From Flavobacteriaceae bacterium LYZ1037 (GTDB lineage Bacteria > Bacteroidota > Bacteroidia > Flavobacteriales > Flavobacteriaceae): a stretch of 64,000 bases of DNA. The stretch spans positions 124,001-188,000 of the forward strand of contig QFWS01000002.1 of the NCBI GenBank assembly GCA_003144015.1. The letters are read 5' to 3'. A program made the translations under genes and the position numbers. Under the pieces are notes generated by a model. It worked only from the letters and a program-made list of their open reading frames with translations. It was not told the origin of the DNA and did not search any database. Shown here piece after piece: positions 28,353 to 31,493 of this stretch (position 1 is the first letter of the stretch; each line of letters starts with the position of its first letter).

Positions 28353-28961
28353 ATGGCTTTCGAATTACCGAAATTAAAATATGCATACGATGCACTTGAA
28401 CCAAATATAGATGCTCGTACAATGGAAATACATCATTCTAAGCACCACCAAGGTTATACAAATAATTTAAACAATGCTATAGCAGGTACAGATTTAGAAG
28501 GAAAAACGATAGAAAATATCCTTATTAATTTAGATATGGATAATAAAGCTGTTAGAAATAACGGAGGTGGCTTTTATAATCATTCTTTGTTTTGGGAAGT
28601 AATGAATCCAGAAGGGAAAGGTTATTTATCTGGAGAGTTAAAAGACGCTATCGAAGCTGCTTACGGTACTGTAGATGCTTTTAAAGAGACCTTTAGTAAA
28701 GCAGCTGCAACACAATTTGGATCAGGTTGGGCTTGGCTTTGTGTGCATAAAGGTGGTAAAGTTGAAGTTTGTTCTTCACCTAATCAAGATAATCCATTAA
28801 TGCCAGGAGTAGGTTGTGGAGGAACACCAATATTAGGATTAGATGTCTGGGAACATGCATATTATTTAAACTATCAAAACAGACGTCCAGATTATATTAA
28901 TGCTTTTTTTAATGTAATTAACTGGAATGAAGTTGAAAGACGTTATGCTGAAGCTAAATAA
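28353..28961 (+). CDS. sodA: Superoxide dismutase, Mn-type or cambialistic
   Basis: A 202-residue Fe/Mn superoxide dismutase that converts superoxide to oxygen and hydrogen peroxide in the cytoplasm. Metal ligands are in HHSKHHQGY (His about 27), NHSLFW (His about 75) and DVWEHAYY (Asp and His about 164-168). The outer-sphere Gln comes from the C-terminal NQDNPLM, while the N-terminal site reads NNGGGFYNH without Gln, the pattern of Mn-dependent enzymes. Metal use cannot be settled by eye. It is a single gene with its own promoter and terminator. Confidence 0.93.
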
Positions 28962-29053
28962 AACTCTTAGTGCCATTTAGGTCTAAAAATCTAGTAAGGT
29001 TGAATTTAATTCCTTCAAAGATTTAATTAGGAGAATTTAAATAATGAATTGAT

Positions 29054-29085
29054 ATAAGCGAATCTGAAAAGATTCGCTTTTTTTT
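29054..29085 (+). terminator. Terminator after superoxide dismutase gene
   Basis: AAGCGAATC and GATTCGCTT form a nine-pair stem around a TGAAAA loop, followed by nine T. Confidence 0.88.
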
Positions 29086-29180
29086 TTAAAATTCAGATGA
29101 AAAAAACACACAACCTTTTCAATAGTAAGATAGTTTCAAAAATTAACAGATGGAATTCCGACCTTGGGGATTTAAAATGA

Positions 29181-29250
29181 AAAAAGGTGAACGAGAGTTC
29201 ACCTTTTTTGCCCCAAATCTACCATAAACTTAACCTACTTATGTTATGGT
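29181..29250 (-). ncRNA. Candidate small RNA, copy 1
   Basis: On the minus strand a -7 box TATATTTG (29255-29262) is followed by an RNA of about 68 nt. It has a hairpin with arms ACCATAA and TTATGGT around a 16-base loop containing GTAGGTTAAG, a linker GATTTGGGGC, then a terminator stem GGTGAAC/GTTCACC with six T. A second copy 230 bp away differs at four positions over 72 bases. The layout promoter, conserved hairpin, terminator is what a stand-alone small RNA gene looks like. It may belong to the Flavo-1 class of flavobacterial RNAs, but this could not be checked. The strand is inferred. Confidence 0.55.
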
Positions 29251-29254
29251 GATT

Positions 29255-29262
29255 CAAATATA
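29255..29262 (-). promoter_or_regulatory. -7 promoter box of small RNA copy 1
   Basis: Minus-strand TATATTTG, a full match to TAnnTTTG, ending about five bases before the conserved CACCATAAC start. No -33 TTG is visible. Confidence 0.5.
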
Positions 29263-29410
29263 TGATTGTATTCTAAGAAAAGTGAGAATTATTAGATAAA
29301 CGGCTTATATATTAGTCTAAAAGTGTAATTAATAAAGAATTAGATAGAAACAAGAATAATAACCTTGTGTAATTGTTGAAGAAATTCTTAATTTTTATGG
29401 TGTAAAATAA

Positions 29411-29481
29411 AAAAAGGCGAACGAAAGTTCACCTTTTTTTGCCCCAAATCTACCATGAACTTAACCTACTTATGTTATGGT
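29411..29481 (-). ncRNA. Candidate small RNA, copy 2
   Basis: The same element as at 29181-29250: the hairpin arm pair ACCATAA/TTCATGG (one mismatch on this strand), the same loop and linker, and a terminator stem GGTGAAC/GTTCGCC with a G-T pair followed by seven T. Upstream on the minus strand lies TACATTAG (29486-29493) at exactly the place of the copy 1 promoter box, matching TAnnTTTG at all but one fixed base. The copies share nothing outside the element and its promoter position. It lies downstream of purF on the same strand. Confidence 0.55.
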
Positions 29482-29594
29482 GAAACTAATGTAGTTTTAT
29501 TTTTTTTAAACTTTTATATATTTCAGATGAAATGCATATATTTCAGATAAAAGTACGTTTTTGTTAGATAAAGCGTTATAAATTAACAACTTAT

Positions 29595-31493
29595 CTAGTA
29601 AGCTCTTTCTTTGTTTCCTTCGTAAAAATTGATAAAAGCTCTATTTACTACGCGATTTCCTCCGACAGTTGGATAGTTTCCTGTAAAATACCAATCGCCT
29701 AAATTTTTAGGACAGGCTTTATGTAAATTTTCTACAGGCTGAAAAATAGTTACCACTTCAGCCTTTACAGATTTATCTGAAATTAACTCGGCTATCTTAC
29801 TAGAGATGGCTTCTGCAGAAAATTGAGAATATAAGTCTTTTACAAAATTTCTAACGTCTTTGTCTTCCAGTTCTACTTGAGCTTTACATTTTTCATAAAC
29901 CTCTTGAACTAAATGATATTTGTTATTTTCCTCTAGCAATTCTAACATGGCTCTAAAGGCAATTAAATCTTCTAGTCTAGCCATATCTATTCCATAGCAA
30001 TCAGGATATCGTATCTGAGGTGCAGAAGAAACCACGACTATTTTTTTAGGATGTAATCGATCCATCATTTTAATAATACTCATTTTAAGTGTGGTTCCTC
30101 TTACAATACTATCATCTATAATAACCAAATTGTCTGTTGGTTTAATAACTCCATAAGTGACATCGTAAACGTGAGCCACTAAATCGTCGCGACTACTGTC
30201 TTCTGTTATAAATGTTCTTAATTTAACATCTTTAATGGCTATTTTTTCAATTCGTGGACGTTCTGAAAGAATTTGTGTAACTCTTTCAGCAGAAAGCTTG
30301 CCGTTTCCATCTAAAATAGCTTGTGTTTTTTTCTTATTAAGGTGTTCTTCAACAGTTTCAATCATTCCAAAAAATGAGGTTTCTGCTGTGTTTGGGATGT
30401 AGGAAAACACCGAATTTTTAGTGTCATTATCAATAGCTTCTAAAACTTTTGGCATTAATAACTTTCCTAAGGTTTTACGTTCTTGGTAAATTTCAGCATC
30501 ACTTCCTCTTGAAAAATAAATGCGCTCAAAAGAGCAGGCTTTACGCTCAAGAGGCTCAATAATTTTCTTAATACATACTTCCCCAGATTTTTTTGTAATT
30601 ATGGCGTGGCCAGGTTCTAATTCTTCGACATCTTCAAAGGCCACATTAAATACGGTTTGAATAACGGGTCTTTCAGATGCGATAACAACAACTTCATCAT
30701 CTTTATAATAATAAACAGGTCTAATTCCTGCTGGGTCTCTTAAAACAAAAGCATCTCCATGTCCTAAAAGTCCAGCCATGGCATAACCTCCATCCCAATT
30801 TTTTGATGAGCGTTTCAATATTTTTGCAACATTAAGTCGTTCGGCTATTAAAGGAGAGCATTCATTTTTACTATAACCTTCCTTTTTTAGTTGTTTGTAT
30901 TTTTTAGCTACTGCATCATCTAAAAAATGACCAATTTTTTCCATAATAGTAATGGTATCTGCCATTTCTTTTGGATGTTGCCCAATTCTAACTAACTCAT
31001 CAAATAACTCATTAACATTTGTCATGTTAAAGTTTCCGGCAAGAATAAGATTTCTGTGCATCCAATTGTTTTGTCTTAAAAAAGGATGGACGTTTTCTAC
31101 ACTATTTTTGCCAAAGGTGCCATACCTAACATGTCCAAGAAGGACTTCGCCAATATATGGAAGGTGTTTTTTTTGAAGCGCTACATCTTCCTTGTATTCG
31201 GGATGTTCCTGCATTTCTTTATTAATCCTGTCGTTTATCTGAGCAAAAATATCCTGAATAGGTTGCTGCGCAATAGAACGTACACGACTAATATAACGAT
31301 CTCCGGGATTCGTATCTAATTTAATACTAGCAAACCCAGCACCATCTTGACCACGATTGTGCTGTTTTTCCATCATTAAATACATTTTGTTCACTCCGTA
31401 AAATGCACTCCCATACTTTTCCTTATAAAACTCAAGAGGTTTTAAAAGTCTAATTTGTGCAATACCACATTCGTGTTTTAAAGCGTCACTCAT
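29595..31493 (-). CDS. purF: Amidophosphoribosyltransferase PurF, long form
   Basis: The first committed enzyme of purine synthesis, transferring glutamine nitrogen to PRPP. The glutaminase nucleophile is Cys9 (HECGIAQI) after an eight-residue leader that would be removed. HNRGQDGAG and HVRYGTFG are glutaminase blocks. The phosphoribosyltransferase loop is LVIIDDSIVRGTTL at about 472-485. At 632 residues it is about 130 longer than the E. coli enzyme; the extra sequence lies between the domains (about 365-455) and at the C-terminus (about 560-632). This long form is usual for Flavobacteria. It starts 62 nt after the PfkB gene, past a terminator. Confidence 0.93.
   Translation of the reverse strand: MSDALKHECGIAQIRLLKPLEFYKEKYGSAFYGVNKMYLMMEKQHNRGQDGAGFASIKLDTNPGDRYISRVRSIAQQPIQDIFAQINDRINKEMQEHPEYKEDVALQKKHLPYIGEVLLGHVRYGTFGKNSVENVHPFLRQNNWMHRNLILAGNFNMTNVNELFDELVRIGQHPKEMADTITIMEKIGHFLDDAVAKKYKQLKKEGYSKNECSPLIAERLNVAKILKRSSKNWDGGYAMAGLLGHGDAFVLRDPAGIRPVYYYKDDEVVVIASERPVIQTVFNVAFEDVEELEPGHAIITKKSGEVCIKKIIEPLERKACSFERIYFSRGSDAEIYQERKTLGKLLMPKVLEAIDNDTKNSVFSYIPNTAETSFFGMIETVEEHLNKKKTQAILDGNGKLSAERVTQILSERPRIEKIAIKDVKLRTFITEDSSRDDLVAHVYDVTYGVIKPTDNLVIIDDSIVRGTTLKMSIIKMMDRLHPKKIVVVSSAPQIRYPDCYGIDMARLEDLIAFRAMLELLEENNKYHLVQEVYEKCKAQVELEDKDVRNFVKDLYSQFSAEAISSKIAELISDKSVKAEVVTIFQPVENLHKACPKNLGDWYFTGNYPTVGGNRVVNRAFINFYEGNKERAY

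Follow-up and report, generated by a model that had tools for sequence, protein, structure and literature searches.

The two near-identical elements in the window, the whole stretch of 64,000 nucleotides analyzed here, are probably tandem genes for a trans-acting small RNA (sRNA) which, under a putative LytTR-like activator, would block the start of a microprotein mRNA and form an incoherent feed-forward pair with it. The tandem, near-identical small RNA genes with their own promoter and terminator signals, as put forward in the preliminary description, are confirmed at the level of sequence, and the observation is larger than was thought there: the present analysis adds the spread across the family, the repeat in front of each copy, and a target gene.

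Comparison of the genome with itself gave an identity of 94% across 76 bases between the two elements (Table 1), which differ by three substitutions and by unequal lengths of the A-run and the T-run. Each copy of the ~72-nt RNA comes with a -7 box, a direct repeat of 20-bp period further upstream, and a terminator, and copy 1 is matched by the covariance model at G000:C23:153180-153250 on the minus strand (E 5.2e-17). The terminator of copy 2 was missed by a simple terminator scan. The -7 boxes do lie at an identical offset in both copies, as had been noticed earlier; the accompanying statement that sequence outside the elements is not shared did not hold, since the direct repeat is found upstream of both. 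The flavobacterial -7 box is reported to sit at -12 to -5 (PMC9723704), and both starts are therefore placed on the A of ACCATAAC. The genes sod and purF-like converge on the two-element array, and sod is followed downstream by a terminator-like hairpin of its own (29056-29079, plus strand) and then a run of eight T.

Table 1. Positions of the sRNA genes, their signals, and the flanking genes in the window.
Feature	Position	Strand	Basis or remark
sRNA copy 1	29178..29250	-	ACCAUAACAUAAGUAGGUUAAGUUUAUGGUAGAUUUGGGGC plus terminator; predicted 5' end 29250
sRNA copy 2	29408..29481	-	terminator arm with U.G pair; predicted 5' end 29481; covariance-model E 3.8e-16
Terminator stem-loop and U-run, copy 1	29180..29209	-	simple terminator scan, 13 pairs; stem covariation in the family
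Terminator stem-loop and U-run, copy 2	29409..29440	-	repeat and folding analysis; stem with one wobble pair
-7 box of copy 1	29262-29255	-	TATATTTG; read from sequence; family profile, unanchored and anchored
-7 box of copy 2	29493-29486	-	TACATTAG; read from sequence; family profile, unanchored and anchored
Direct repeat of copy 1, predicted activator site	29292..29324	-	ACTTTTAGACTAA ... GCCGTTTATCTAA; 20-bp period
Direct repeat of copy 2	29523..29555	-	TACTTTTATCTGA ... GCATTTCATCTGA; 20-bp period
Fe/Mn superoxide dismutase gene (sod), flanking	28353..28961	+	Sod_Fe_C and Sod_Fe_N domains
Flanking gene with glutamine amidotransferase domain, termed purF in the preliminary description	29595..31493	-	GATase_7, 30.2 bits (cut-off 25)

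Both elements fold into two hairpins, with z-scores of -3.9 and -3.8 for copies 1 and 2 on the minus strand and -5.5 and -5.1 on the plus strand, and none of 200 shuffled sequences was as stable as the native one in any of the four combinations of copy and strand. Folding alone cannot choose the strand, because both strands beat the shuffled sequences and the plus strand has the lower z-scores. The wobble pairs of the family settle it: 115 distinct terminator stems contain 1416 Watson-Crick pairs, 49 G.U pairs in the minus reading, five A.C pairs, which would be G.U on the plus strand only, and two others. Among 28 sequences, the first-hairpin pair formed by alignment columns 7-23 is A-U 15 times and G-U 13 times. 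By family comparison, the RNA is thus that of the minus strand.

The covariance model (R1) was built from 28 copies, taken from 36 non-redundant rows of which the rest were truncated, mis-ended, antisense (L158), or simply not taken. R1 matches 208 of the 249 sampled Flavobacteriaceae genomes at E ≤ 0.01, including seven with a best E between 1e-5 and 0.01; related genomes are not independent in this or any other count given here. One match was found in 45 genomes, two in 79, three in 44, four in 26, five in 10, six in two, and seven in two, so that 84 genomes have three or more; an occasional antisense match to a target leader, as seen in G248, may be among those counted. In a class-wide sample of 295 genomes, 10 match at E ≤ 0.001, six of them Flavobacteriaceae and four, matched weakly (E 6e-4 to 9e-4), from outside the family, and BLAST gave partial matches in two of 23 genomes from other families of the order (G038, G058). 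The exact 15-mer CTTAACCTACTTATG occurs in at least 118 stretches of named genomes; the titled matches among those listed (80) are mostly Flavobacteriaceae with a few unrelated chance matches, and the carriers listed include Zobellia, Maribacter, Winogradskyella, Aquimarina, Lacinutrix, Flavobacterium, and others. Among the matches listed, 104 of the 118 stretches hold family copies of the RNA, one in 46 loci, two in 25, three in 16, four in 11, five in five, and six in one, and 88 of these 104 loci have a purF-like homolog, and 76 a sod homolog, no more than 1.5 kb from the array. A search for spread by phages or plasmids gave no match at E ≤ 1e-5.

The best conserved part of the RNA is its 40-nt non-terminator part, where the sequence is conserved beyond structural need, with the loop AUAAGUAGGUUAAG and the single-stranded linker GAUUUGGGG as the conserved core elements. 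Some genomes carry RNAs with GGTAAGATTTGGGG (TAAGA type) in place of GGTAGATTTGGGG (TAGA type). Two extra, diverged copies (84%) with ACCCAAATCTACC linkers lie off the main array in L256 (G012, C13:463964 and 472588).

Comparison with known RNAs gave no name for the family. At the gathering threshold, Rfam yielded a single tRNA over the whole window and nothing at the elements. At E ≤ 10, the region 28950-29650 had 30 sub-threshold matches on both strands, the best being STnc250 on the plus strand (25.7 bits, gathering 42), and Flavo-1, to which the elements had tentatively been assigned, was absent from all 30 and did not reach its gathering threshold. Identity with a known Rfam family was therefore rejected, since none in Rfam 15 reached its gathering threshold at the elements. 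Sequence and topic searches of the open-licence literature, preprints excepted, returned no report of the RNA family, the microprotein, or the shared-site wiring. The two elements thus belong to an apparently unnamed RNA family common to most sampled Flavobacteriaceae.

The model of FopS (RF04319) gave 19.7 bits on the minus and 17.7 bits on the plus strand, both at copy 2, against a gathering threshold of 56. FopS of Bacteroides thetaiotaomicron is described as a multicopy sRNA family of Bacteroidota in which the seed is conserved, the promoters are of the ABfr type, and a Rho-independent terminator is present, all of which recall the RNA here, and as being bound by RbpB (PMC11697453); by the same description it consists of a single-stranded 5' stretch and a terminator hairpin, whereas the RNA here adds a 5' hairpin. 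LhrC1-5 of Listeria monocytogenes is likewise reported as a multicopy sRNA whose five copies all need the LisRK two-component system and which binds an envelope-protein mRNA and impedes its translation (PMC4132741). This kind of RNA is therefore already known. The resemblance lies in several near-identical copies, each with its own promoter and terminator signals, as found here; LhrC is described as using CU-rich pairing sites (PMC4132741), in contrast to AUAAGUAGGUUAAG and GAUUUGGGG here, Listeria belongs to another phylum, and the best target here is a microprotein with the same promoter site. Two-component control of the RNA here may at most be suspected from that shared predicted site. Rfp18 of Flavobacterium psychrophilum is a flavobacterial sRNA reported to be conserved beyond its species and to affect secreted-protease mRNAs, two of which are lowered by its loss; it is described as pairing by a third stem-loop, while the RNA here has two hairpins (PMC9723704). 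Identity of the two is unlikely, judging solely from this description of Rfp18.

The promoter layout is common to the family. The unanchored -7 profile, counted from the core, has the layout T A.. T T. G (T 87%, A 89%, T 99%, T 93%, G 75%), and a loose -7 pattern is present in 267 of 269 sRNA contexts, 19 nt before the core in 224 of these, one of the 269 being an antisense read of a target leader (L158). TTTG at -33 is not conserved in the sRNA promoter profile, which has merely a T-rich stretch there (up to 69% T). In the anchored family profile, where T, A, T, T of the -7 box are forced, G[CT]nTTTnAnCnA occurs twice with a period of 20 bp, at about -61 and -41 relative to the -7 box. The repeat score in sRNA promoters has a median of 12.7 bits, and not all sRNA copies have the repeat, because the lowest tenth scores below -3.2 bits. 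A scan of the 64-kb window on both strands found four repeat sites of at least 13 bits, the top two being those of the sRNA copies, with a matrix trained on 267 promoters that include these two. Copy 1 scores 19.8 bits, the window best, and copy 2 scores 16.3 bits, the second best; in the modal register of the family, one base away, they score 9.4 and 10.6 bits, respectively.

LytTR sites are reported as two repeats of 9-11 nt with 11-13 nt between them, and E. coli YpdB as binding repeats of GGCATTTCAT, while LytTR regulators are described in the same account as having no common consensus (PMC4847170). The common half-site here, GCATTTCATC, is close to that of YpdB, and the 20-bp period, upstream of the promoter, agrees with the LytTR-type layout. 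A LytTR protein is thereby predicted as the activator that may bind the repeat.

The element search of the own genome also gave partial matches at C31:165513-165623, a locus flanked by a CoA-transferase gene on one side and an oligopeptide-type ABC transporter gene on the other. Comparison with relatives identifies it as the leader and start of a small gene that has a -7 box of its own; its reading as decayed copies or a sponge RNA was dropped because of this reading frame and of coding-type selection. The microprotein is 26-46 aa long (MNFAPNLPKQPTNYESKLYASLQSTGRFIKSLMYLTKKIFML in this genome, with the mRNA at C31:165585-165710), short, and basic, with a hydrophobic C-terminus like KK[VI]F[ML]L. 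For the 14 members used for its profile, NCBIfam gave no match at E ≤ 1 and Pfam none better than 0.16. The profile matches 102 of the 249 Flavobacteriaceae genomes at E ≤ 0.001, as a single match in 101 of them. All 102 lie among the 208 genomes with the RNA, and the exact RNA core is present in all 60 microprotein genomes read, a reversed control pattern in none. The other 106 RNA-carrying genomes have no microprotein match, among them four with six to seven RNA matches (G008, G125, G244, G252). Median dN/dS was 0.30 (28/28 pairs), 0.16 (130/136), and 0.15 (36/78) in three groups, which speaks for a protein gene under purifying selection; within the own genus, differences are equally frequent at codon positions 1 and 3 (152 and 154).

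Duplexes between the 5'-terminal 41 nt of the RNA and positions -90 to +40 were calculated for 81 distinct microprotein loci, a set that lacks L330 and L353 and in which the start of L344 is misassigned. The median energy was -36.4 kcal/mol vs -18.6 for shuffled leaders; pairing was stronger than with any of 100 shuffled leaders in 76 of the 81 loci and than with any of 100 shuffled RNAs in 75, and it most commonly extends from about -30 to +3, spanning the AUG. Pairing with the leader only, without the coding part, had a median of -33.9. Among the 60 loci drawn by the protein profile (L302-L363), 55 beat all shuffled leaders, the profile itself having been built from loci found through complementarity to the RNA. 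The own-genome microprotein pairs at -40.4, compared with a median of -15.8 and a best value of -24.6 for 50 gene starts of the window as control. The best pairings are near-perfect antisense, e.g., GCCCCAAATCTACCAAAACTTAACCTACTT|ATG in G006. In the calculated duplexes, complementarity to the translation start thus exceeds that of shuffled controls, as expected of a trans-acting base-pairing sRNA. The site GCCCCAAATCTACC in the coding region encodes A-P-N-L-P and may be protein-constrained. In this genome, the microprotein mRNA (L009 5518-5608) has three sites for the RNA in a row, two in the leader and one in the coding region, so that one mRNA could bind several sRNA molecules.

The two RNA types were contrasted by pairing two RNAs that differ by the inserted A with each leader, two of the 81 loci being omitted for want of a read RNA type. 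In TAGA-type genomes, 58 of 62 loci prefer TAGA by at least 1 kcal/mol, four tie, and none prefers TAAGA. Genomes with TAAGA copies, the majority of which carry TAGA copies too, contribute 17 loci, and many of their leaders look like a single clade; of these loci, 13 tie, three prefer TAAGA, and one, with a misassigned start, prefers TAGA. Since the TAAGA loci mostly tie, co-variation appears mainly as a lost TAGA preference, with G034 as the clearest case (leader TCCCAAATCTTACCAACTTAACCTCAT|ATG), and the co-variation of RNA and leader, as read from these sequences, is partial.

The sRNA-derived matrix also finds the repeat upstream of the microprotein gene, where it beats 40 of 40 shuffles in 70 of the 81 loci and the reverse strand in 77. 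The -7 box lies 51 bp past the repeat in 32 loci and 52 bp in 12, and was not recognized at either distance in 37 of the 81; the distance in sRNA promoters is 61, about one helical turn longer. A second candidate target is a secreted-type protein starting MNKLTYLC in three of six congeners searched (G000 C12:520480, G002, G003), with a T9SS sorting-domain match below the cut-off (23.1 bits, cut-off 40). Its gene has a repeat of 13.6-15.8 bits, CCCAAAT in the leader, and TTAACCTACTTATG early in the coding sequence, and pairs with the RNA at -34.1 to -36.4. Lipoprotein-like genes in other many-copy genomes pair at -36.9 (L391, G104) and -36.6 (L386, G256), the latter alone having a good repeat. 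In five congeners (L374-L377 and L379; G000, G001, G002, G003, G005), TCAACCTACTTATG directly follows a TAnnTTTG box where a membrane-protein-like gene, presumably YhhN-like, is about to start or has just started; this gene was rejected as a target, its pairing being merely -19.8 to -23.2 with no repeat above 9 bits.

Sequences related to the RNA were also seen elsewhere. Short RNA-like units lie close to the end of a presumed yidC gene (L262), at about 2113-2180 of L258 (plus strand, G008) and 1960-2029 of L262 (minus strand, G025). They have a 5' TCCCAAATCTTACCAAACTAA followed by a terminator-like hairpin; their pairing energies with TAAGA RNAs are -36 to -43 kcal/mol, and they are possible sponge or decoy RNAs. 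In L254, L255 (G033), L251, and L173 (G014), CCCCAAATCT(T)ACCATA precedes a long hairpin with GCGC ends, and the unit in L254 has a NikA-like protein and a MobA/VirD2-like relaxase nearby. Since the CCCCAAATCT units match the RNA version of each genome, be it TAAGA or TAGA, part of the RNA or a site for it may be carried by a mobile element. In L168 and L166 (G001, G006), GCCCCAAATCTATCATAAATTCAACTATG stands just past the stop of a gene with what we read as a T9SS-like tail, before a hairpin, as a possible 3'-UTR site.

Three other explanations were weighed against a base-pairing regulator. A type I toxin-antitoxin system acting in trans, with a toxic microprotein and the multicopy RNA as its antitoxin, would fit the pairing over leader and start codon in most loci, the presence of the RNA in all 102 microprotein genomes, and the several RNA copies per genome. 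It is nonetheless unlikely, as 106 of 208 RNA carriers have no microprotein match, the microprotein occurs as a single match in 101 of 102 genomes and lies here between the CoA-transferase and ABC genes, it is under purifying selection and has a promoter element in common with the RNA gene, and the RNA has other plausible targets. The leaders of TAGA-type genomes, fitted to the TAGA RNA, speak against a quite improbable second explanation, in which the RNA mainly binds an RbpB/FopS-like RNA-binding protein and pairing with the microprotein mRNA is secondary. The precedent reported for FopS and RbpB (PMC11697453) and a core more conserved than structure needs would agree with it, but the FopS model stays at or below 19.7 bits and matches both strands.

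The elements might finally be duplicated bidirectional terminators for sod and purF and no separate genes, as the two genes converge here and A-rich/T-rich stems can form on both strands. This is very improbable, for 267 of 269 contexts have a -7 box in front and most have the repeat, the part outside the terminator is the best conserved and is complementary to the mRNA start, and sod has its own terminator-like hairpin at 29056-29079.

In the preferred reading of the elements as tandem genes for one trans-acting, base-pairing sRNA, a putative LytTR-like activator would bind the direct repeat and turn on most sRNA copies. The loop AUAAGUAGGUUAAG and the linker GAUUUGGGG would pair across the 5' leader and the AUG of the microprotein mRNA and block its translation initiation, and the RNA would probably also pair with a few secreted- or envelope-protein mRNAs. 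As the microprotein gene has the same activator site, RNA and target would both be switched on as an incoherent feed-forward pair, in which the RNA may cap or delay the protein. The copy number of the RNA would set its dosage, and the dosage or redundancy earlier suggested for the tandem copies is plausible. For the family as a whole, it is tentatively proposed, with considerable doubt, that one LytTR-type signal induces a dosage-tuned sRNA array together with its targets, i.e., the new microprotein family and secreted and lipoprotein genes, that the block of the start codon yields a pulse or threshold, and that the microprotein may feed back on the signalling system.

To our knowledge, few Bacteroidota small RNAs have a supported target. 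The present analysis adds an RNA family without a match in Rfam 15 and a microprotein family without a match in Pfam or NCBIfam. It points to one RNA in most sampled members of a large environmental family, with a target leader fitted to it, and the shared promoter element points to one activator and would provide a concrete circuit, for which the one to seven RNA copies per genome form a natural dosage series.
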